37,345 nucleotides of DNA, from the NCBI GenBank assembly GCA_017624895.1, contig JAGAMB010000056.1:1-37345 (forward strand). The letters run 5' to 3'. The DNA comes from Ruminococcus sp. (lineage in GTDB: Bacteria > Bacillota > Clostridia > Oscillospirales > Ruminococcaceae). The notes beneath the pieces were generated by a model, which had not been told where the DNA came from, searched no databases, and saw only the letters and a program-made list of their open reading frames with translations. Positions within the stretch are counted from its first letter, which is position 1. Every line of letters begins with the position of its first letter. Both the position numbers and the translations under genes were made by a program. This document shows positions 13,044-29,863 of this stretch, in pieces.

Positions 13044-13670
13044 ATGAAAAATATAGTTGTTCTCGTTTCGGGCGGCGGTACTAATTTACAGGCTCTTATT
13101 GATGCTGAAAAGGCAGGGGATATTCTGGGCGGAAAAATCACCTGCGTTATATCATCAAATTCCTCAGCATATGCTCTTGAAAGAGCGAAAAACAACGGTA
13201 TATCCACAAGAGTGATCCCAAGACGGGATTATTCCGACTCAAAAGCCTACAGTATTGCTGTCCTTAATGCCCTTGATGAGGAGCAGGCGGATCTTGTTGT
13301 GCTGGCAGGCTTTATGACTATTCTTGACGAGTGCGTCACAAGCAGATACGCTTACAAGATAATCAACGTTCACCCAGCACTTATCCCATCATTCTGCGGA
13401 GAGGGCTATTACGGACTTAAAGTTCACGAAGCGGCTCTCGGTTACGGAGTAAAGGTAAGCGGCGCAACAATTCATTTTGTAAATGAGGAAGCCGACGCAG
13501 GAGCAATTATCCTGCAAGGTGTAGTGAATGTTGAAAAGGACGATACACCCGAAATTCTCCAGAAGCGTATTATGGAGAATGTGGAGTGGAAGCTTCTCCC
13601 TAAGGCAGTTTCACTTTTCTGTCAGGATAAAATTGAAATTGTTGACGGCAGAGCTTACGTCAAGGAGTAA
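13044..13670 (+). CDS. purN: Phosphoribosylglycinamide formyltransferase
   Basis: A 208-residue protein preceded by AAGGAGAG. VLVSGGGTNLQALIDA (5-20) binds GAR phosphate. INVHPALIPSF (near 106-116) holds the catalytic Asn-x-His, and VSGATIHFVNEEADAG (near 136-151) holds the catalytic Asp. It uses 10-formyl-THF to make FGAR. The last ~33 codons are duplicated at 14797-14895. The final codons contain AAGGAG, the ribosome site for the GTG-start gene that follows. Confidence 0.95.
   Translation: MKNIVVLVSGGGTNLQALIDAEKAGDILGGKITCVISSNSSAYALERAKNNGISTRVIPRRDYSDSKAYSIAVLNALDEEQADLVVLAGFMTILDECVTSRYAYKIINVHPALIPSFCGEGYYGLKVHEAALGYGVKVSGATIHFVNEEADAGAIILQGVVNVEKDDTPEILQKRIMENVEWKLLPKAVSLFCQDKIEIVDGRAYVKE
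13572..13670 (+). repeat. 99-bp direct repeat, copy 1 (3' end of purN)
   Basis: This matches 14797-14895 with about 13 mismatches in 99 positions by eye, mostly at third codon positions. The two copies flank two genes unrelated to purine synthesis. Confidence 0.9.
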
Positions 13671-13673
13671 GCC

Positions 13674-14237
13674 GTGAAGCTATCGGCTATTACGGAGAAT
13701 CAGCGTATACAAAAGCTTTTTTTAAGCTTTATGATGTATGCTTTTCTCGGTTGGTTTTATGAAGTTTTTCTTGAAGTCGTAGTCTATCGCTGGGGATATT
13801 CCGACAGGGGAGTTCTTTTCGGACCATATTGTCCTGTATACGGAGTAGGAGCAATTCTTTTCCTCGGTGCATTTCGACCGCTTATGAAGAAAAAAGAGCC
13901 TGACTGGTTCAGATTTTATGTGAAGCCGATTATCATATTTCTCGGCTGTATGGCAATTGCTACCACGGTGGAACTTCTTGCAAGCTATATGCTGGAATAT
14001 TTCACGGGAGCATGGCCGTGGCAGACATATGCGGATTATGAAATAAACTTTCAGGCGAGAATTGCACTCAGCCCGTCAGTGCGTTTCGGACTGGGCGGAT
14101 TACTTTTCCTCTATATAGTTCAGCCGTTTTATGATTGGCTGTTTTCAAAGGCAAAGGAAAAAACGCTGAATATAATTACAGCGTGTGTTGCATTAATAGT
14201 CTTATGTGACTGTATATACACATTTATTATCAAGTAA
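13674..14237 (+). CDS. Putative ABC-transporter permease-like membrane protein (CmpB/type IV family)
   Basis: A 187-residue polytopic protein. The GTG start at 13674 is supported by AAGGAG overlapping the purN stop. Four to five hydrophobic segments lie at about 15-35, 55-68, 82-105, 137-155 and 164-182. SFMMYAFLGWFYEV at the start, RGVLFGPYCPVYGVGA (~45-60) and the WPWQTYADYEINFQARIALS loop are typical of proteins annotated as putative ABC-transporter type IV (PF06541-like). No ATPase partner is adjacent and the substrate is unknown. It lies between the two purN 3'-end copies, so it may have arrived with that insertion. Confidence 0.7.
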   Translation: MKLSAITENQRIQKLFLSFMMYAFLGWFYEVFLEVVVYRWGYSDRGVLFGPYCPVYGVGAILFLGAFRPLMKKKEPDWFRFYVKPIIIFLGCMAIATTVELLASYMLEYFTGAWPWQTYADYEINFQARIALSPSVRFGLGGLLFLYIVQPFYDWLFSKAKEKTLNIITACVALIVLCDCIYTFIIK

Positions 14238-14266
14238 GGAGCAGTTAAACAGGCTTATATAAAGTA

Positions 14267-14761
14267 ATGATTACAGATATTTTTGATAATTCATACGGTT
14301 TTGAGGGGAAGATTTATTCTGAGATTTTCAAAACCGATATGGCGGTAATGATAGACCGCAAAATATGTCTTGATTATGTTATGCAGTGCGTGGACGAATT
14401 TAACTCCCTTGACAGCGAGGTTGTTGGAACTATTTGCAGTGCTGCTAAGGCTTATTGTCTGGAATTTTTGGAGGAAACAGGCGGAGATTTTTACGGTAAA
14501 ATGAAAATTTCTGTTACTCCCGAAACTGCCCCCCTTGAAATGCTGAAATGCTTTAAGCCGACTGTACTTATAGTAAAAAAGCCTGAAGATGAAGAAAGTA
14601 TCTGCTATCAGCTTGAATGTCGGACTGACTGGGAAATAGAACACAGTATGGAAATTGTCATATTCAATGGCAATGCCGTGTATCTTGGTGTGTTCGGAGG
14701 TCATTCACCATGGCGTGAATTCAATCCTGATGACAAATTTAATTATATAAATAAAGTATGA
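14267..14761 (+). CDS. Hypothetical soluble protein
   Basis: A 164-residue acidic protein with no signal peptide or membrane segment. The C-terminal pattern CRTDWEIEHSMEIVIFNG followed by YLGVFGG resembles the ending of several uncharacterised families (DUF6985-like is a guess) that pair with polymorphic-toxin immunity or stress genes. AAGGAG lies about 30 nt upstream of the ATG, further than usual, so translation may be weak. It is inside the segment flanked by the purN duplicates. Confidence 0.5.
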   Translation: MITDIFDNSYGFEGKIYSEIFKTDMAVMIDRKICLDYVMQCVDEFNSLDSEVVGTICSAAKAYCLEFLEETGGDFYGKMKISVTPETAPLEMLKCFKPTVLIVKKPEDEESICYQLECRTDWEIEHSMEIVIFNGNAVYLGVFGGHSPWREFNPDDKFNYINKV

Positions 14762-14775
14762 CGGAGTAAATTATC

Positions 14776-14895
14776 ATGGTTAAACTTGATTTAGCAATGG
14801 AAAATGTGGAATGGAAGCTTCTCCCTAAGGCTGTATCACTTTTCTGTCAGGATAAAATTGAAATTATTGACGGTAAGGCTTATGTAAATGAATGA
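14776..14895 (+). pseudogene. Truncated duplicate of the purN 3' end
   Basis: A 39-codon reading frame. Its first 7 codons are unrelated; the next 32 match the purN C-terminus (MENVEWKLLPKAVSLFCQDK onward) with only Val to Ile, Arg to Lys and Lys to Asn changes, other differences being synonymous. It lacks the catalytic Asn, His and Asp, so it cannot be an active transformylase. ACGGAG precedes its ATG and its stop overlaps the start at 14888 (ATGAATGA), so it may still be translated as a leader for the next gene. Confidence 0.85.
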
Positions 14896-20832: not shown

Positions 20833-20952
20833 AAATCACTTATATATAGAAGGGTAATTCTGATATCCTTTGATTGAACAATATTCACAAATCCAATGTG
20901 AAATAATTGTGCATATTTTCAAGTGAAAAAAGCCGAATTGGAGGAATGAACT

Positions 20953-22461: not shown

Positions 22462-22695
22462 TTATGAAACAGTTACGCTTACCGCCGCCGCGTCCTCCCT
22501 GCGCAGGGCAATAACTGTTCCCTTTACGCAATAAGCGGCAGGATCTCCTGCAAAGCTTCGGCAGCGGCACATAACCGCTGTACCTGCGGTAAAGCCAAGC
22601 TCCTTTAATCTTTCGGATATCTTTGACGGTTTAACAGCTGTTATGATACAGCGTTCCCCCTCCCTCAAATCACTAAGGCATTTCTCGGACTGCAT
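22462..22695 (-). CDS. feoA: FeoA-domain protein
   Basis: A 77-residue protein from the ATG at 22695, preceded by CGGAGG; a longer in-frame start at 22740 lies inside a terminator hairpin and lacks a ribosome site. The whole protein is one FeoA/SH3-like fold: LREGERCIITAV, the RLKELGFTAGTAVMC segment, GDPAAYCVKG and IALRREDAAAVSV. FeoA proteins are cytoplasmic partners of the FeoB ferrous-iron transporter, which is not nearby; orphan FeoA-domain proteins also occur as regulators' SH3 domains. It has more Cys than usual (C6, C17, C44, C46, C56). It is separated from the phage cassette by a terminator. Confidence 0.85.
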   Translation of the reverse strand: MQSEKCLSDLREGERCIITAVKPSKISERLKELGFTAGTAVMCRCRSFAGDPAAYCVKGTVIALRREDAAAVSVTVS

Positions 22696-22721
22696 ATTAT
22701 CCTCCGTAAATTGTATGAAAA

Positions 22722-22748
22722 ACTGCGGTATGATTTCCATACCGCAGT
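22722..22748 (-). terminator. Rho-independent terminator of the phage cassette
   Basis: On the minus strand ACTGCGGTATG and CATACCGCAGT form an 11-bp perfect stem with a 5-nt loop, followed by TTTTTC. It lies 22 nt after the hub-like gene stop and inside the leader of feoA. Confidence 0.9.
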
Positions 22749-22769
22749 AATATTATATTCCGTTGTATA

Positions 22770-23687
22770 TCAGGTGTGTGCAAGTTCCTCATAAACGCTG
22801 ACTTCTGTAAATATACCATTTTTGCTTCCCGTTACCTTTATTGCATTTATGCGCTTTCTCCCAAGATCGGGCATTACGGCTATATCATTGATATCCTCGC
22901 CGTAATAGTCATTAAAGGTAAAGAAATGGCGCTTATATGCTCTCTCTGCCAGCATAATGCGGTAGTCGCAGGCTTTTTCGGGATCGCTCAGAAATCGCTG
23001 ATCGAGATCGAAATGGCGGTTTCGTATAAGACCTCTTGCAATTGCCTCATCTGATGTGGCGGAAAATGTACCGTAATCTCCGCCCATATCTGCCATATTA
23101 TAGTTGCTGACCATTCGCCGTGTATAAATCTCCGTTCCGTATGAATGGGCGTAAGCTGTATTGCATACGACACTGCGATCACCTTCAGCAACGGTCATCA
23201 TAACGGTGTTGCTGCCCTTAATATAGGGATAAGTCCCTGCAAGCTTATACGCAAGATTTGCCGCCCCGTCCCACATTGACGTACCCTTGTTAACATAGAT
23301 GTAACTGCTCAGGGCATTGCTTTCGTGTTCGATATTCGGCAGAGTGAAATATTCGTCAAAGAGCCTGTCAAAAGTCATATTTGTGTACATACCCGGCGGC
23401 AGCTGATTTTCCGTCAGCAGGGCAGTAAAGCCTCTTGATGAAAGTGTACATTTTTTCACTCCGTTTTTGGTTATGACCTTATAGCTGTCAATAAATCCGT
23501 GATGAACGATATTACCGCCGACTTTAAGTCTTACCTCGATTATATCATCGGGGAGGTTTTCCGCATATATCACAGCGTTGAACATTGTATAAGGTGTATA
23601 TGCCTCTTTTACATAGGTGAAGTAATAACAATTCTGAAAGAGGCTTTCAACTCCGTCACGCGTTTTTAAATAAAGCCAGTAAATCAT
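22770..23687 (-). CDS. Phage tail hub-like protein (gp27 / late-control-D-like)
   Basis: A 305-residue protein. Residues ~30-85 show the pattern of hub proteins: a strand ending EVRLKVGGNIVHHGFIDS followed by KKCTLSSRGFTALLTENQL, similar to the (V/L)-K-x-GG-x-x-x-x-G-x-(V/I)-DS and (L)-S-(S/A)-R-G-(F/K) motifs of gp27/GpD/XkdQ-type proteins. Residues ~100-125 (MTFDRLFDEYF) fit the helix that follows. The C-terminal half continues beta-rich with no peptidoglycan hydrolase domain. The start ATG overlaps the upstream stop by 1 nt (TAATG). It is the last gene of the cassette. Hub identity is inferred from pattern, not proven. Confidence 0.65.
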   Translation of the reverse strand: MIYWLYLKTRDGVESLFQNCYYFTYVKEAYTPYTMFNAVIYAENLPDDIIEVRLKVGGNIVHHGFIDSYKVITKNGVKKCTLSSRGFTALLTENQLPPGMYTNMTFDRLFDEYFTLPNIEHESNALSSYIYVNKGTSMWDGAANLAYKLAGTYPYIKGSNTVMMTVAEGDRSVVCNTAYAHSYGTEIYTRRMVSNYNMADMGGDYGTFSATSDEAIARGLIRNRHFDLDQRFLSDPEKACDYRIMLAERAYKRHFFTFNDYYGEDINDIAVMPDLGRKRINAIKVTGSKNGIFTEVSVYEELAHT

Positions 23688-24073
23688 TATGTCACCTCGT
23701 TGACAAGATATGCAGGAACAGTTGTTGACGCATTGACTGTCAGCTCAATATAATCCTCGCCGCCGTCAACAGCAGTAAATCCCGTTACAATGCAGTCGGT
23801 AAAGCGGAGATTTTTATATATTATTTCCAGATCCTCACATCCGTTAAGATTACTGGCAACACCTGCATAAAACATGGAATTTTCTTTCATATATACCCTG
23901 CCGGTAAAAGAAAGCTTTGTCATTTTGCGGCATTTGTTTGTTACAATAGGAGTACCATTAATTGTAGGATTAAGGCTGACAGCAGTTTCCGATGTCATAG
24001 TCATTTTCTCGCAGTAAAGCGAAACGGCTCCTATTGTTACGAGGAACGATTTTTTTTCGCTGATTTCTGTCAT
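23687..24073 (-). CDS. Small phage tail protein (tube- or baseplate-like)
   Basis: A 128-residue protein, beta-rich, with GGGAGG before the ATG. TKLSFTGRVYMKE (~52-64), LEIIYKNLRFTDCIVTGFTA and the EDYIELTVNAS segment suggest a tube-like or baseplate-wedge beta fold, and a tail role fits its position just before the hub-like gene. I cannot choose between tail tube and adaptor from sequence. It is translationally coupled to the hub gene. Confidence 0.5.
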   Translation of the reverse strand: MTEISEKKSFLVTIGAVSLYCEKMTMTSETAVSLNPTINGTPIVTNKCRKMTKLSFTGRVYMKENSMFYAGVASNLNGCEDLEIIYKNLRFTDCIVTGFTAVDGGEDYIELTVNASTTVPAYLVNEVT

Positions 24074-24085
24074 ATTCCGCCTCCC

Positions 24086-24481
24086 TTACAAAGTGATTGT
24101 TTTCATGCAATTCAGTTTTACTACCGCCTTTAAGGTGAGCTTGTTCAGCTTGCTGTCGGGAGATACATCAAGACTTTTCAGACGGCTGCACAATCCGCAT
24201 ATGCTGTCTATTGTCTTAGCAAAATTATAATGATAGTAGCCGTACAGCTCCTCCTGCGTTGTGTTCATGGGAGCATAAACTGTCAGCGTAAGGTCGCATT
24301 TTACAGGCATATAGATTTTTGTCTTTGTCTGTATGGGATTTTGCGCCTCATATCCTCCGAAACCGAGGACGGCAAAGAATTTCCCCTTATCCTGAACGGG
24401 AACCGCGTCATATGCTGAATACACGTTTTCAACGCCGTTTTCCTCCAGCGTCTGTTTGATTTTCGCAAGTATCTCAACCAT
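24086..24481 (-). CDS. Small phage head-tail completion / tail-terminator-like protein
   Basis: A 131-residue protein with AGGAGT upstream. The N-terminal helix (VEILAKIKQTLEENG) is followed by the strands of a small alpha/beta protein (KFFAVLGFGG, KIYMPVKCDLTLTVYAP) and a long helix (YHYNFAKTIDSICGLCSRLK), which matches the layout of tail-terminator proteins that close the tail tube at the head. Size and position between the connector-like and tail-like genes agree. The family is inferred from layout. Confidence 0.5.
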   Translation of the reverse strand: MVEILAKIKQTLEENGVENVYSAYDAVPVQDKGKFFAVLGFGGYEAQNPIQTKTKIYMPVKCDLTLTVYAPMNTTQEELYGYYHYNFAKTIDSICGLCSRLKSLDVSPDSKLNKLTLKAVVKLNCMKTITL

Positions 24482-24493
24482 AGCCTCACTCCT

Positions 24494-24844
24494 TTAAGCC
24501 GCGCCGATGAAAATAAAGTCCGAGCCTTTTATGAGTTCTTCACAAAGGCGGAAATATCCCTTCAGAAGTCCCTCTGCAAATTTGAGGATTTTCCCGTCGC
24601 TGTCGTTTATGACCTTTCCGCCGTAGGTATATTCAGAGCGATCCTGCGCCGACAATGCCTGATAGTAGCGGAAATTGGCAATAGCAGCGCAGAGAAAATC
24701 AAGTCTTGGATCTTCTCTGTCGGCATTTTCGAGAATCATACCCTCAACCTCCATAACAGCAGCTTCGATCAGAGGCTCATGCTGTTCTGTGCAGGAATTT
24801 CCGGAAAAAAGGGTAAAAAGAGATTTTATCTTAGGCAAATTCAT
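24494..24844 (-). CDS. Phage head-tail connector-like protein
   Basis: A 116-residue, mainly helical protein with AAGGAGG before the ATG. A first helix (IEAAVMEVEGMILE), RLDFLCAAIANFRYYQALS and a C-terminal helix (ILKFAEGLLKGYFRLCEEL) fit the all-helical gp6/gp15-type connectors that sit under the portal. Position after capsid and protease genes agrees. Weak sequence signal; the call relies on size, helicity and order. Confidence 0.5.
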   Translation of the reverse strand: MNLPKIKSLFTLFSGNSCTEQHEPLIEAAVMEVEGMILENADREDPRLDFLCAAIANFRYYQALSAQDRSEYTYGGKVINDSDGKILKFAEGLLKGYFRLCEELIKGSDFIFIGAA

Positions 24845-24856
24845 AATTTTTCCTCC

Positions 24857-25681
24857 TTAAAGCCTGAAACGTGACATATCCTCTCCATTGGATTTTCCTG
24901 AAAGCTGAACTTCTGTTTCCCTGTGTCTTGTAAGCGCCTCATAGCTTTTTTTAAGAGCTTCAAGCTCTGCTATACTTTTACCTTTTATTGCAGCTTCCGC
25001 CTTTTCCGCAGCCTTTACTCCGCCGCTGAAAAAAGCAAGCTGTCGTATTTCGCGGCAAAGCTCCTCTGTATCAGGGAGTTCAGCAGATGACGGCATTTTT
25101 TCATCGGCACATTCGCTGTATTTCTTTGTAACTCCTGCGTTGACCTGCGCAGGAACTGCCACAAAGCTCCATTCATAAGCGTCGGAAATACCGTCAAGGA
25201 TCGTGTGACATATATTTCCGCCATAGCTTTTTCCGCTGATATGACCGCAGCCTCCCTGTGATTTATCTCTGCCGCATACAGAGCAGACTCTCTTTGCAGC
25301 GGAGCAGGAAATGCTGACCTCCTTTTTAATGCCGCCGTCAATCTCAGCTATGAGATTTTTGTTATCCTCAGTACGCACCATATAGGCGGAGGCTTTGAGG
25401 TATTTGTACGGCTCGCCGTTTTTTGTTGTGCGGCTTTCATCAGTTACAAGCTCCGTGTCATATATTCTCGCAGTCTGATTTGATGTGCTGGGCTTGTGGT
25501 CGAAAATACCCGTTTTGCCGATGAACATTGTGCTGAGAGTATCGAGCGCCTTATCGGAAAAGCGTTCACAGTCACGGTCTATTTCGTTGTCGCAGAGTAT
25601 GACGGAAAAGGTGTAGAGTTCATCTTCTGTAAGCTCCCGACGGGTGAATTTGTTGATTTTATCAAGGGTAGTTTTATCCAT
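24857..25681 (-). CDS. HK97-type prohead protease with a zinc-binding insert
   Basis: A 274-residue protein with AAAGGAGG before the ATG. Residues 25-62 (FSVILCDNEIDRDCERF ... GIFDH) match the first strands of the family and include the catalytic His (H62). EVSIS (121-125) includes the catalytic Ser (S123), and YEWSFVAVPAQV (169-180) is the typical closing strand. Between them lies CSVCGRDKSQGGCGH (133-147), a C-x2-C-x8-C-x-H metal-binding pattern seen in some phage proteases. The C-terminal ~80 residues are helical and may act as scaffold. It cleaves capsid subunits during head maturation. It follows rather than precedes the capsid gene, which is unusual. Confidence 0.8.
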   Translation of the reverse strand: MDKTTLDKINKFTRRELTEDELYTFSVILCDNEIDRDCERFSDKALDTLSTMFIGKTGIFDHKPSTSNQTARIYDTELVTDESRTTKNGEPYKYLKASAYMVRTEDNKNLIAEIDGGIKKEVSISCSAAKRVCSVCGRDKSQGGCGHISGKSYGGNICHTILDGISDAYEWSFVAVPAQVNAGVTKKYSECADEKMPSSAELPDTEELCREIRQLAFFSGGVKAAEKAEAAIKGKSIAELEALKKSYEALTRHRETEVQLSGKSNGEDMSRFRL

Positions 25682-25702
25682 TTTTCCTCCTTTTTTTAAA
25701 AG

Positions 25703-25783
25703 AGCCGTTAGCCTAAAACAGAGCTATTAGCCGTTAGCTTTCAGCCTTTAGCTATGGGCTAACGGCTAATGGCTGACGGCTGA
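25703..25783. repeat. Hairpin-forming GCCGTTAGC repeats between capsid and protease genes
   Basis: AGCCGTTAGC occurs at 25703 and 25729, and the 13-base ATTAGCCGTTAGC (25726-25738) pairs perfectly with GCTAACGGCTAAT (25758-25770) over a 19-nt loop. Further GGCTAA/GGCTGA copies extend to the capsid stop. In the transcript this is a strong stem in the 102-nt gap between capsid and protease. Confidence 0.8.
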
Positions 25784-26740
25784 TTATGAAATAACTATTT
25801 TCTTAACTGCGTCAGGCATAATCTTTCTGAAACCGCAGGTAATTGATACTGTGATCTGATCAAGCTGACGGTCGATAAGCTTGTCTGTTTCCATTACAAG
25901 TCCTGAGCTTGTAACAAATTCAAGTGCAAAATTCTTGTCGATACCGAGGATCGTATTCTGTTCAAGAGCCGATGTTTTTACAAGCTCTGAGCCAAAGGGG
26001 AGAATCATTTTACCGTCAGCAGACAGCTTTGAATCGGAAAGCTGTTCCATAGCCGCAATTTTTGAAGCGTCCGAAGGATTTGCAATAACCGTTGTCATAT
26101 CGAAGCAGTCAAAGCTGCCGTAAAGCTCCGCAAGAGAAGCATAGCTAAGGGAGGCTGCATTTACAGCTGCCGCATCCTCTGCAAGAACGGACATAGCCTT
26201 TTTAACAACCGATACTGCAAGCTTTACACCGATACCGCGGAGCATAACGCCGAATACATCAAGGCGCTGCTTTCTTACAGCCTCATAGGAAGCGTTGATA
26301 AGTCTGCCGTATTTTTCAAGCACTACCGCAGTTTCGCCCTCAGTAACAACTGATTCGGGGAGCTGTACTGTCTGCGCTGTTGCTGAATATTCCGCTGTAT
26401 CATCGAGGACGCAGCCGAGATACTGACCGCTTTCGCATACAGTCTTAACTGCCGTCACAGAAGAAAGAACAGTTCCCTCAAAGCCCTTTGCAATGCTTCT
26501 CTTGACGTATTCGGGGAAAAGCACCGCTGTTTCCGCAGATGTGAAGAATTTTTCCACGCAGTCGCAGTCAGCGCCGCTTACCCTGATATTGAAGCGCTTG
26601 AGCTGTCTTTCAAAAGCGTCCAGAGCTTCAAGCTCCGTACCGATATATGCGGCGGAGGGATCAAGCTCCTCTAAAGCTGCCGTGAAGCTTTTTCCGCTGA
26701 GATTGTACATAGCCTTTTCAAGTTTTACATCATTATACAT
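25784..26740 (-). CDS. Phage major capsid protein (HK97 fold)
   Basis: 318 residues from the ATG at 26740; GGAGGAAA lies just upstream of this ATG and inside the longer in-frame form starting at 26755. The N-terminal ~85 residues (helical, KAMYNLSGKSFTAALEELDP) could be the scaffold-like delta segment. SAETAVLFPEYVKRSIAKGF (~102-121) and the E-loop-like stretch that follows are typical of HK97-type capsids. VSVVKKAMSVLAEDAAAV forms the spine-like helix, and the C-terminus (VSITCGFRKIMPDAVKKIVI) closes the P-domain. It follows the portal gene after 20 nt. Confidence 0.7.
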   Translation of the reverse strand: MYNDVKLEKAMYNLSGKSFTAALEELDPSAAYIGTELEALDAFERQLKRFNIRVSGADCDCVEKFFTSAETAVLFPEYVKRSIAKGFEGTVLSSVTAVKTVCESGQYLGCVLDDTAEYSATAQTVQLPESVVTEGETAVVLEKYGRLINASYEAVRKQRLDVFGVMLRGIGVKLAVSVVKKAMSVLAEDAAAVNAASLSYASLAELYGSFDCFDMTTVIANPSDASKIAAMEQLSDSKLSADGKMILPFGSELVKTSALEQNTILGIDKNFALEFVTSSGLVMETDKLIDRQLDQITVSITCGFRKIMPDAVKKIVIS

Positions 26741-26760
26741 ATAAATTTCCTCCATAATAA

Positions 26761-27891
26761 TTATTCGCAGGTTTTTAGCCTTGCCTCAATTTCTGCCGCC
26801 CTTGCGTTGATGAGTCTTGTTTCAGCAAGAACGGATTCGTCCTGTAAATTGATATTGTTCCATTCAACGGAGCATTTTCCGCCGAAGCCCTGTGATTTCA
26901 GAAAAGCGTTGCCGATATCGCACAGAACAGGGGTGATAAGACGGCGGTAGTATTCCAGCTCTGAGGTGAGAATATCCGCCTGCTGTGATGACATACGCTC
27001 TGTTGAGCTCCAGGTAAGTCCCAGAAGAAACGGCGGTATTGCAAGCTTTGCAACTATCTGCTCCAGAAGCTGGCGGACAGGTATTTCCGTATCAATAAGC
27101 TGATTTTCAGCGCCGATAACCTTTATGTCAACGTCGCCTACAGCTATGAAGTCTTTTACCTGACCATATTTCGCAGAATTCATACCGTCCGCCCATTCCC
27201 GCGCGATCTGCATTGCACGTTCCTTTGACTGTATAAACTCCCCTGAACCCTCTGTAGGCTTGTATGTCACCGCATACCGCACATTGCCCACTCGGTCATA
27301 ATTCTGCCCTATACATTGATATATCCGAAGAAGTATGCTGCTTATTGCAGGAAGTCCGCGGAGAAGCGAATTTCCGCCTGTAAGCGCCGCATAGACAATG
27401 CGTTCGGGATGTTTTACAGCTTTGCAGGTATTATCGGCACATCTTACAGCATATCGCCTGTCAAAAGGAGTTGCTCCCTGACTTATGACAATTTTCGTGC
27501 TGTCGCCGTTCCACAAGCCGGCTATTGTCCTTTCGCTGTCGTTGAGGACTATTTCTCCCACCGCACTTCCGTAGGTGAGCAGATTGTCAAGAAAGGTATC
27601 AGCAAAGCAGTTAATTGACTTTCCGTGAAGTCCGACGGGAACAGTTTCACAGAAGCTGTCAAGCTCCCCCTGATATCTTTTTTCAGAGCTGATAAGCCGA
27701 AATCCACCGGTAAGACGGACAATCTTCATTATTGCCGCGTCAATGACGGGGACGGCATATCTCAGCCTGTCGAACAGCTCCTTTTCGAAGGGCGAGGCAT
27801 CATTGGGCAGAGTCAGCATTGAGCTTGTTTCCCTTGCCGCCTGATATAACTCAGGAGCTGCTCTTGGTGTTTTTTTCTTGAATAGTTTCAT
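26761..27891 (-). CDS. Phage portal protein
   Basis: A 376-residue protein, in the usual portal range, with GGAGG 4 nt before the ATG. It starts with a basic segment (KLFKKKTPRAAPELY), then RLRYAVPVIDAAIMKIVRLTG, a helix-strand pattern common to portals. LPAISSILLRIYQC (~184-197) and the later region IPVRQLLEQIVAKLAIPPFLLG (~272-293) with ERMSSQQADILTSELEYYRRLI match the conserved helix, Pro-Pro-x-x-L-G turn and stem of clostridial portals. The dodecameric ring admits DNA from terminase into the head. The gene lies 53 nt after large terminase. Confidence 0.82.
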   Translation of the reverse strand: MKLFKKKTPRAAPELYQAARETSSMLTLPNDASPFEKELFDRLRYAVPVIDAAIMKIVRLTGGFRLISSEKRYQGELDSFCETVPVGLHGKSINCFADTFLDNLLTYGSAVGEIVLNDSERTIAGLWNGDSTKIVISQGATPFDRRYAVRCADNTCKAVKHPERIVYAALTGGNSLLRGLPAISSILLRIYQCIGQNYDRVGNVRYAVTYKPTEGSGEFIQSKERAMQIAREWADGMNSAKYGQVKDFIAVGDVDIKVIGAENQLIDTEIPVRQLLEQIVAKLAIPPFLLGLTWSSTERMSSQQADILTSELEYYRRLITPVLCDIGNAFLKSQGFGGKCSVEWNNINLQDESVLAETRLINARAAEIEARLKTCE

Positions 27892-27944
27892 TTTACCTCC
27901 ATTTGATGATATTGGAAATCAGGCGGATAATTTTTGCTGTTATC

Positions 27945-29189
27945 TCACCGCGTAATTGACATTGCAAAGAAATCATCTGATTTCTCGTTAAGCATAGCCG
28001 TTACAAAATACCGCATATCATCCATTGAGTGGTCGTTTTCCTTAATGGGAGCGTCGGTGCCTGCCTTTGACGACCAGCGGTATAAAGAAAATTCGCGTAT
28101 GATATCCTTGCAGGATTCGTGAAATTTCAGCTTATTCTCTTTCAGAGCCGCCGCCACTCTGCGTATACCTGCAATTACATCGTTATCAGCCTTTACAACG
28201 TGAAATTTTCCGTGCCGCCTGATGCACTCGATAAAGCTTGCCGCAGAGGGATCAATAATGACCTTTTCAATGGCGAAATCTCCTGCAAGCGCTTCAAGAG
28301 CTGCATAATGCTCCTCGTCAGTTCGTGACTGTCCCTCTTTTCGTGAGTCGTAGTAATATTCTCTCAGGCGATACCATACACCGCCGCTATATCCCCATAA
28401 TCCGAATGAGGAGGGATTGACTGTGCCGTAATCGCAGGAAATGACATACCTCTCACATTGAGGACAAGCTGAAAAGATATGCTTTTCAGGGGAGAACATC
28501 GTGTAAACAGTTCCCTCGGAGGCAGTCCATTTCCCCAGAACATAGCGATCATAAAATGCTCCTGAATACAGCCTTTTGTAGCGATTTTTCAGCTCCTCCG
28601 ACAATGACGGGTTATCGTCCATTGTAAAATGGATATACAGCGCTTTTTTGCTGTCCGCCTTTCTGATCCATTCATTGTAGAACCAGTGGGAGGGATTGTC
28701 GGGATTGCAGTTGAACCACATTTTCGAACCGTTTACAGAGCATCGTGCAAGCGCCTGTTCCACAAAGGAACGCGGCATCAGCGCAACCTCGTCAAGGAAT
28801 ACGCCCGAAAGAGTGATACCCTGAATAAGTGCCGCAGAGCTTTCATCGCGTCCGCCGAAGAAATAAAACCGATTTTGTCTGCCGCTGAAGCTGATATCAA
28901 CATAGCTGCGGCTGACCTTTTCCTGACAGACCATACCGATATCACCGAGCATAGGCAATAGTGGAGTTATGACATTTCGCCGCAGGGAGGTCACAGTCTT
29001 ACCGCAAACTGCAAAAGCTCCCCCATTGAAGCTGCTCATAGCCCATATTACGAAACCCAGCGACATTGACATAGTTTTGCCGCTTCTGACAGCGCCGTCG
29101 CAGATGATAGCGTCATACTGCGAATACTTTTTATCAAGCCACCAGTTCATTGTAAGCCGCTGTTTTTTTGAAAGCTCAGTAATTCTCAT
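27945..29189 (-). CDS. Terminase large subunit (PBSX-like)
   Basis: 414 residues from the ATG at 29189; a TTG 36 nt further upstream is possible, and neither start has a strong ribosome site. ATPase motifs: GAVRSGKT (32-39), GVFLDEVALM with Walker B Asp-Glu (D133/E134), and the coupling motif FNCNPDNPSHWFY (159-171). Nuclease acidic residues: D253 (SCDYGTVNPSS), D313 (VIIDPSA) and D390/D391 (DHSMDDMRYF). All catalytic residues are present, so packaging and cutting activity could be retained. It overlaps the small-subunit gene by 14 nt. Confidence 0.93.
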   Translation of the reverse strand: MRITELSKKQRLTMNWWLDKKYSQYDAIICDGAVRSGKTMSMSLGFVIWAMSSFNGGAFAVCGKTVTSLRRNVITPLLPMLGDIGMVCQEKVSRSYVDISFSGRQNRFYFFGGRDESSAALIQGITLSGVFLDEVALMPRSFVEQALARCSVNGSKMWFNCNPDNPSHWFYNEWIRKADSKKALYIHFTMDDNPSLSEELKNRYKRLYSGAFYDRYVLGKWTASEGTVYTMFSPEKHIFSACPQCERYVISCDYGTVNPSSFGLWGYSGGVWYRLREYYYDSRKEGQSRTDEEHYAALEALAGDFAIEKVIIDPSAASFIECIRRHGKFHVVKADNDVIAGIRRVAAALKENKLKFHESCKDIIREFSLYRWSSKAGTDAPIKENDHSMDDMRYFVTAMLNEKSDDFFAMSITR

Positions 29190-29664
29190 AGTCACTATCG
29201 CTGTTGGAAGCGGAAAGTGCCTCAATCAGACCTGCCGCAGTATTTCTGCCGTCCTGTGCCATTTCCAGCTCATACAGCTTTTCAAGAGCTTTCAGGCGGT
29301 CAAAGAGCTTTATCTCCACACCGCCGCCCTTATCTCTCTTGATTTCGGAAACATTGAACAGATCGAGCTTTCCGATAATTTCCGCAGGTGGAAGCTCCTC
29401 CGCAAAGGCAAGCGTTACAGCGTCCCTGCAGCTTCCGAAAGCGAGCCGTTTTAAGCCTGCCCTGACCGTTGAAGCGTCGGAAAAAGCTCTTGTTACAGCA
29501 GCTATCATCTCGCGGCAATCCGTGTCATTAAGACAATCCGCAGCATTTTTCAGAGCCGTACTTTGCGGGTAACCTGCTTTCACAGCGGCTTCTTCAGGAT
29601 TACCCAGCACGACATACTGACAGCAGAAGTTATACCTCCTTTTATCAATATTTTTTTCAGCCAT
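29176..29664 (-). CDS. Terminase small subunit
   Basis: 162 residues from the ATG at 29664 with AGGAGG 9 nt upstream; a GTG at 29685 is less likely. RRYNFCCQYVVLGNPEEAAV followed by KAGYPQSTALKNA (~8-40) is the helix-turn-helix DNA-recognition segment of the family (Phe-Cys..Tyr..G-N..A-A..A-G-Y). The central part is helical, ending LFDRLKALEKLYELE. It selects DNA for packaging. First gene of the cassette; an AT-rich gap of 301 nt separates it from the divergent glycerophosphotransferase gene. Confidence 0.85.
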   Translation of the reverse strand: MAEKNIDKRRYNFCCQYVVLGNPEEAAVKAGYPQSTALKNAADCLNDTDCREMIAAVTRAFSDASTVRAGLKRLAFGSCRDAVTLAFAEELPPAEIIGKLDLFNVSEIKRDKGGGVEIKLFDRLKALEKLYELEMAQDGRNTAAGLIEALSASNSDSDYENY

Positions 29665-29834
29665 TGGCGTTACACCTCCTCTCACTAAAGGGCAGGAACG
29701 GGCATTTTTTCAACGCAAAACAGTTGAATATTGAAAAATAATTTTTATTTTCCACGTTTTAACTGAATTTAAACAGATGAAAATGTTAATAAAGCACAAA
29801 AATATTGATATATTTTTAACGAACTTTGATGCTC

Positions 29835-29863
29835 ATTATAGTGGCAGATATTGATTGAACTAA
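29835..29863 (-). promoter_or_regulatory. Possible promoter of the phage cassette
   Basis: On the minus strand a TATAAT (29840-29835) lies about 170 nt upstream of the small-terminase ATG. The -35 at 17 nt (TTAGTT) is weak, so an activator may be needed or the promoter may be elsewhere in the AT-rich gap. Confidence 0.35.

Follow-up and report, generated by a model that had tools for sequence, protein, structure and literature searches.

Contig JAGAMB010000056.1 of a Ruminococcus metagenome-assembled genome (MAG; 1.6 Mb, 70% complete) forms the window analysed here, a stretch of 37,345 nucleotides that carries a nine-gene phage-type packaging and capsid cassette on its minus strand. Judged from gene content, conservation and distribution, we consider this cassette to be, with a probability of about three in four, an ancient, vertically inherited, phage-derived operon of the gene transfer agent (GTA) type, whose product would be a small capsid, filled with DNA and bearing a very short tail of the hub type. 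In the open reading frames (ORFs) of the window, the nine genes are open, co-directional and uninterrupted from the small terminase gene to the ninth gene (g9) at 22770-29685, as a sequence-only reading of this DNA had described:

29176-29664, minus strand: TerS, small terminase (Terminase_2; PF03592, E 1.5e-11; start in the ORF list, GTG 29685)
27945-29189, minus strand: TerL, large terminase (PF03237, E 1.2e-16; PF04466, E 1.2e-13; phrog_2, E 2.4e-49)
26761-27891, minus strand: portal protein (phrog_30703, E 5.3e-123)
25784-26755, minus strand: major capsid protein (PF25209, E 3e-10; phrog_3922, E 2.4e-62)
24857-25681, minus strand: probable prohead protease (phrog_16951, E 3e-93; named by motif reading)
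24494-24844, minus strand: g6, 116 amino acids (aa), probable head-tail adaptor from its position (profile matches in 20/20 genus loci and 38/40 other loci)
24086-24481, minus strand: g7, 131 aa, probable neck or tail-terminator protein from its position (profile matches in 20/20 genus loci and 16/40 others)
23687-24073, minus strand: g8, 128 aa, possible tail-tube-like protein (weak solved-structure matches)
22770-23687, minus strand: g9, 305 aa, baseplate-hub-like protein (profile-profile comparison)

The roles first proposed for TerS, TerL, the portal and the capsid are confirmed by family matches and the hub-like role of g9 is supported by hhalign, while the protease keeps its name by motif reading only, from motifs that we take to be those of a protease, because phrog_16951 is a family without an assigned function. 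TerL has intact Walker A and Walker B motifs and nuclease residues, and their columns are at least 97% identical across 105 relatives from many genera, which agrees with the earlier claim that the residues of both functions are kept. The portal protein also matched PF04860 (E 3.2e-4), under the curated cut-off of that family. When g6 to g9 were searched singly against Pfam and PHROG, there was no match at E 0.1. As shown by hhalign, g9 aligned with two baseplate-hub (phrog_177) proteins from related loci at probabilities of 94.8% and 97.1%, which supports the name hub-like; its top solved-structure match was a 43-kDa tail protein (E 0.081), and in the same kind of profile comparison the best matches of g8 were an XkdM-related protein and a tail-tube protein, both weak (E 0.12-0.14). 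TerS more likely starts at ATG 29664, which is preceded by a ribosome-binding site, than at GTG 29685; TerL more likely starts at ATG 29189 than at the TTG 29225 of the ORF list, and the capsid gene possibly starts at an inner ATG at 26740.

Of the 125 genus genomes, 116 carry the portal gene, as do 66 of the 68 high-quality ones; there was no internal stop among the matches listed, and in one genome the portal appeared as two partial matches at contig ends. In the Ruminococcaceae it was present in 185 of 396 high-quality genomes and 50 of 95 sampled genera, and in the order in 62 of 297 genomes, 36 of 145 genera and five families, with one match holding an internal stop. The family and order screens gave a single portal match per genome among the genomes listed. 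This distribution is far from the patchy pattern of prophages. The named portal relatives were mostly Ruminococcus, with 70-73% identity to R. flavefaciens strains and 54-57% to R. albus strains. The portal is still present in two genomes of about 0.7-0.8 Mb (G172 and G245, genus g49), which are rated 97% and 94% complete.

To describe selection, the window was compared with seven close relatives, and median ratios of nonsynonymous to synonymous substitution (dN/dS) ranged from 0.055 to 0.19 over the nine genes (TerS 0.14, TerL 0.07, portal 0.06, capsid 0.07, protease 0.11, g6 0.12, g7 0.14, g8 0.19 and g9 0.17), which indicates purifying selection; since dS is near saturation, only the sense of these ratios is safe. 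The neighbouring genes gave values from 0.04 (purD) to 0.17 (p488). Pairs for which dS could not be computed were dropped (two for the protease, one for g6, two for g7, one for g8, two for g9 and five for the host gene feoA). All nine genes were detected by profile in 20/20 genus loci, and every gene reached at least 85% of its window length in 16 of these. The gene order was the same in most loci, the neighbours were conserved as well, and the median length from TerS to g9 was about 7.0 kb. Outside the genus, TerS and TerL were both kept in 39 of 40 loci.

These results bear on the deletion remnant of a larger prophage that the sequence-only reading had called the plainer alternative. As a remnant would predict, the cassette lacks tape-measure, fibre, integrase and lysis genes, and one genome (G010) has it in deleted form; set against genus-wide conservation under constraint, with nine genes whose set and order agree in most loci, this explanation is hardly credible for the window, and as a general explanation it is already contradicted by the spread and the dN/dS. 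Absence from near relatives or relaxed dN/dS had been named beforehand as the outcome favouring a recent remnant, and the opposite was observed, so that the rival proposal of a GTA-like or otherwise domesticated capsid system gains support. The cassette can be lost, rarely among complete genomes, as the deletion in G010 and the lack of a TerL match in G105 indicate. G010 is one of two high-quality genus genomes without a portal, and among the nine portal-less genomes of the genus four had a TerL match at E 1e-20.

The descent of the cassette is mostly vertical. Cassette and rpoB distance matrices were correlated over 60 genomes (Spearman 0.67; 0.79 within genus and 0.49 between genera), with none of 999 permutations as high, and the two trees had 20 of 57 splits in common compared to a mean of 0.17 with permuted labels. 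In 15 of 20 genus loci, purD or the neighbour p249 lay within the fetched stretch. A local inversion between the window and one relative (L032) spans the cassette, feoA and p488.

The claim that the cassette is bounded by a terminator and host-type genes also held, with CDP-glycerol glycerophosphotransferase and ABC-transporter genes on one flank and the following features on the other:

22722-22748, minus strand: intrinsic-terminator-like hairpin 3' of g9 (12-pair stem, T-rich tail; the region has 8 terminator-like sites compared to 7.0 in shuffles)
22462-22740, minus strand: feoA, host-type gene directly downstream, outside the element (PF04023, E 4.3e-15)

In 15 of 20 genus loci, feoA is co-directional behind g9. 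No integrase or replication genes were found in the cassette, which in the window amounts to nine genes flanked by host-type ones. Two loci (L058 and L064) have recombinase-like genes, noticed by eye, at 3-4 kb from the cassette, the flanks having had no systematic search. Such a locus differs from an intact prophage, in which integrase, regulation, replication and lysis genes lie in one island and occurrence is patchy, and from a tailocin, which has a complete tail and no terminase, portal or capsid, since the cassette has terminase, portal and capsid genes. What it does combine is part of what defines a GTA: phage-derived structural and packaging genes on a host chromosome that are inherited vertically under purifying selection (apart from some tree conflict and a few shortened genes), and no genes for self-propagation, that is, integrase or replication genes, in the cassette. 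A GTA moreover packages mostly random host DNA in a capsid too small for its own gene cluster, delivers it to recipients and is released by dedicated lysis genes under common control.

Upstream of TerS, about 150 nt are conserved across relatives in the alignment, and within them lies a leader:

29689-29796, minus strand: leader upstream of TerS, also a dispersed repeat (model R1, 109 positions; 88.3 bits, E 5.7e-18)
29709-29728, minus strand: leader hairpin, 7-bp helix with a loop of 6, one helix position unpaired in the window copy (from covariation)

The R1 model has 30 rows, the window sequence among them. Covariation over 38 loci supports the hairpin: 83.5% of cells were paired compared to 32.7-41.4% when the helix was slid, and there were 53 double-change cells compared to 15.3 in shuffles. 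The stem is almost wholly different yet complementary in seven of these rows, which belong to other genera or families. The seven Rfam matches to the leader were all under the gathering score, none near it. At E 0.1, R1 matched all 46 high-quality genus genomes, with 1-57 matches each and best E values from 2e-18 to 0.07. In at least 30 of 43 portal genomes (matches to E 1.6e-9), a match on the same strand preceded the portal start by about 1.9-2.2 kb, a co-location that is partly by construction, since R1 was built from such loci. Twelve duplicate named loci had been removed prior to the k-mer count.

Of twenty further leader copies examined, seven stand before phage-like genes and one before a gene that looks glycosidase-like by eye. 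The phage-like cases comprise an AAA_25 ATPase three times (once in G046 and twice in G069; a family search was made on one), a set of XhlA-like, holin, fibre-like and endolysin genes twice (G046 and G069), and a small protein of the XhlA-like lysis set twice (G007 and G012). The AAA_25 ATPases, of 316-336 aa, lie directly behind the leader copies (L290, L292 and L294) and resemble phage primase/helicase families.

The leader model thus led to a lysis locus that is unlinked to the cassette in these relatives: copies were found de novo before XhlA-like, holin and Peptidase_M15 genes in G046 and G069 (80 bits), and neither of these two copies had gone into the R1 model. The G069 endolysin matched Peptidase_M15_3 (E 1.1e-14) and phrog_894 (E 3e-27), and the names XhlA-like and holin-like are given by resemblance, because the PHROG matches of these proteins are without assigned function. 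An XhlA profile matched in 16 of 46 genus genomes, in 14 of them at E below 1e-20. Of these 14 strong loci, 12 have a holin-like gene downstream and 11 an endolysin-like gene (similarity to the M15 gene identified five of the latter, the Pfam families M23, GH25 and CHAP three, and inspection by eye three). The leader was found just upstream on the coding strand in seven of the 14 (E at most 0.0019), two of these holding only the hairpin part; two more matches were weak, and two matches in L336 lie elsewhere. The MAG of the window itself, 70% complete, had no match in the XhlA profile search. The earlier statement that lysis genes are lacking is right for the cassette and needs amending for the system, as a candidate locus lies elsewhere in relatives behind the same leader. 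The proposed search for missing genes elsewhere reached this candidate lysis locus in relatives; Baseplate_J, followed as a route to a second tail and lysis locus, was present in only 2/46 genus genomes and led to no locus.

The shared leader upstream of the lysis genes of some relatives points to a GTA-like system, in which a host regulator would act via the leader so that the capsid operon and the lysis locus are switched on together in a fraction of cells. Terminase would then load capsids with chromosomal DNA, the protease would mature the head, and the adaptor, tube-like and hub proteins would close the portal vertex. Holin and endolysin would lyse the producer cell, and the particles could bring host DNA to relatives. 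For direct tests of this regulation, the hairpin leader common to both loci and the separate lysis locus offer a starting point.

Several results weigh against a GTA-like system of vertical descent. The cassette is known from its genes alone. XhlA was found in only 16/46 genomes, and the leader is at the expected place in only 7/14 strong loci. Besides standing before TerS, the leader is scattered through genomes as a repeat (in G014, G045 and others; examples are L311, L313, L320, L323, L326 and L329), with 43 matches in G045 and a near-identical unit in the copies compared; 12 of the 20 further copies have no co-directional gene directly behind them, and the leader is still present in G010 and G105, which lack an intact cassette. 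In G010 an internal deletion has left the leader, TerS, an open g9 and one half of TerL, and in G105 TerL was without a match at E 1e-20. Genes are shortened in 4/20 genus loci (the capsid gene in G045, TerS in G069 and G006, TerS and g9 in G109), possibly by error or artefact because these genomes are drafts. Synonymous sites near saturation make the dN/dS rough. Of 43 well-supported cassette splits, 16 clash with rpoB splits that are likewise well supported, and either a degree of transfer or a poor rpoB tree has to be reckoned with.

Three readings would each account for some of the leader data: a regulon with decoys, a co-opted mobile repeat and a terminase recognition site. In an extended form of the last, the hairpin element of about 150 nt would be both operon leader and packaging-initiation site of the terminase, and its dispersed copies would seed packaging genome-wide, with the host tuning the cargo by the number and place of repeats; we regard this as quite improbable. 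Weak matches of the promoter-like half of the leader hint at a possible alternative sigma factor. One of them, at 20877-20934 of the window, matches the first half of the leader (11.8 bits, E 1.7) and lies just before the lipoprotein-like gene p488, and in relatives similar weak matches stand before p488-like (lipoprotein) genes and an extracytoplasmic function (ECF) sigma factor gene.

A domesticated capsid could also serve a role without DNA, as a compartment or in adhesion. The small tail set would suit such a role, and a DNA content is so far predicted from the genes. The near-invariant catalytic columns of TerL (at least 97% identical over 105 rows from many genera) and the retention of TerS with TerL in 39/40 loci outside the genus argue for packaging, and we hold a non-DNA role to be highly improbable.

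Among the 40 loci from other genera, 10 have tail-sheath and baseplate-wedge genes besides the core and 30 do not, which shows that contractile-tailed relatives exist. The compact form often stops at g9, with an opposite-strand host gene nearby. Searches of ORFs, Pfam and PHROG found no sheath or wedge genes in the Ruminococcus cassette, and we infer that this is a reduced form; a range of forms from contractile tails down to a hub alone would reveal how strongly a phage particle can be pared down and yet be retained. The long-form loci, with sheath and wedge as in contractile phages, raise the alternative of a PBSX-like defective particle, which packages host DNA and is kept for killing competitors rather than for gene transfer, and PMC12946183, in its accessible part, names this alternative for the Faecalibacterium GTA (FpGTA). 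The Ruminococcus form without sheath or wedge, Baseplate_J in only 2/46 genus genomes, and a conserved terminase and portal that a killing device does not need make this explanation unlikely. In R. albus-type loci, a gene of 106-119 aa stands behind g9; used as a probe, it had matches in 0/46 genus genomes, in a search without a positive control. In three of these loci (L058 at 13628-14860, L057 and L075), g9 is directly followed by a gene of 114-119 aa and by a lysozyme gene, GH25-like by eye, and lysis genes are therefore cassette-linked there.

PBSX of Bacillus subtilis resembles the cassette in being chromosomal and non-propagating, with terminase, portal and capsid genes, when compared by description (PBSX is cited in the accessible part of PMC12946183). 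Its sheath, hub and wedge genes have counterparts in the long-form relatives of the cassette, whereas the Ruminococcus form has no sheath or wedge genes and its loci are split. The lysis order XhlA-like, holin, endolysin is presumably shared with PBSX as well. RcGTA and CcGTA of the Alphaproteobacteria are inherited vertically, consist of several loci and are produced under host control. These traits are shared with the cassette, in which host control is part of the proposed mechanism; by description, their gene families are different and the RcGTA tail is siphovirus-like.

The accessible part of PMC12946183 (2026) reports GTA-like packaging in Ruminococcaceae, of 8.4-8.9 kb for Faecalibacterium and 4.6 kb for R. 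callidus, with mostly random host DNA packaged by R. callidus and other Ruminococcaceae. A gene cluster is given there for Faecalibacterium (the two-locus FpGTA), and that part of the source names no genes for R. callidus. As far as the same source describes them, FpGTA I and II of F. prausnitzii resemble the cassette in being small operons of Ruminococcaceae with terminases, portal and capsid, near-ubiquitous in their genus, with an unlinked second lysis locus and no replication genes. FpGTA particles look tailless and hold host DNA, as those of the Ruminococcus cassette would; FpGTA I differs in its 10.5 kb, ten ORFs and described scaffolding protein, and FpGTA II in also having baseplate and fibre genes, by a comparison of descriptions only (PMC12946183). 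The cassette type may make the 4.6-kb particles of the R. callidus kind, in which case the capsid would be too small for a cassette of about 7.0 kb. According to the accessible part of a model in PMC7762592, an average of 3.6 kb of double-stranded DNA corresponds to about T 1.33 and 11.8 kb to T = 3, with wide, overlapping intervals, so that capsids of the tailed-phage type would hardly come smaller than a particle of 4.6 kb.

Literature searches on GTAs, viruses, prophages and proteomes of these hosts brought up, among the open-licence papers listed, none besides PMC12946183 that deals with a GTA gene cluster of Ruminococcus. If the GTA-like reading is true, the cassette would supply a gene cluster for the GTA-like packaging in Ruminococcaceae faecal particles, for which the accessible part of PMC12946183 gives Faecalibacterium genes only. 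It would also be among the few GTA-like systems outside the Alphaproteobacteria, present in 50/95 sampled genera of the family and five families of the order. The carriers include the culturable rumen fibre degraders R. flavefaciens and R. albus.

The first matches in a phage collection, MT835508 among them, were considered as a parent phage and rejected, MT835508 being bacterial chromosome (SecY, RpoA, S3, RnfC). Its country and source fit a particle study (PMC8361208, accessible in part); a search for an accession link found none, and because host DNA in such a study could also be contamination, the record was not counted as evidence of packaging. Three 'Bacteriophage sp.' records, L085 (MT835508.1), L086 (MT835952.1) and L087 (MT835769.1), have this type of cassette next to bacterial genes, and by eye L086 and L087 resemble bacterial chromosome too.

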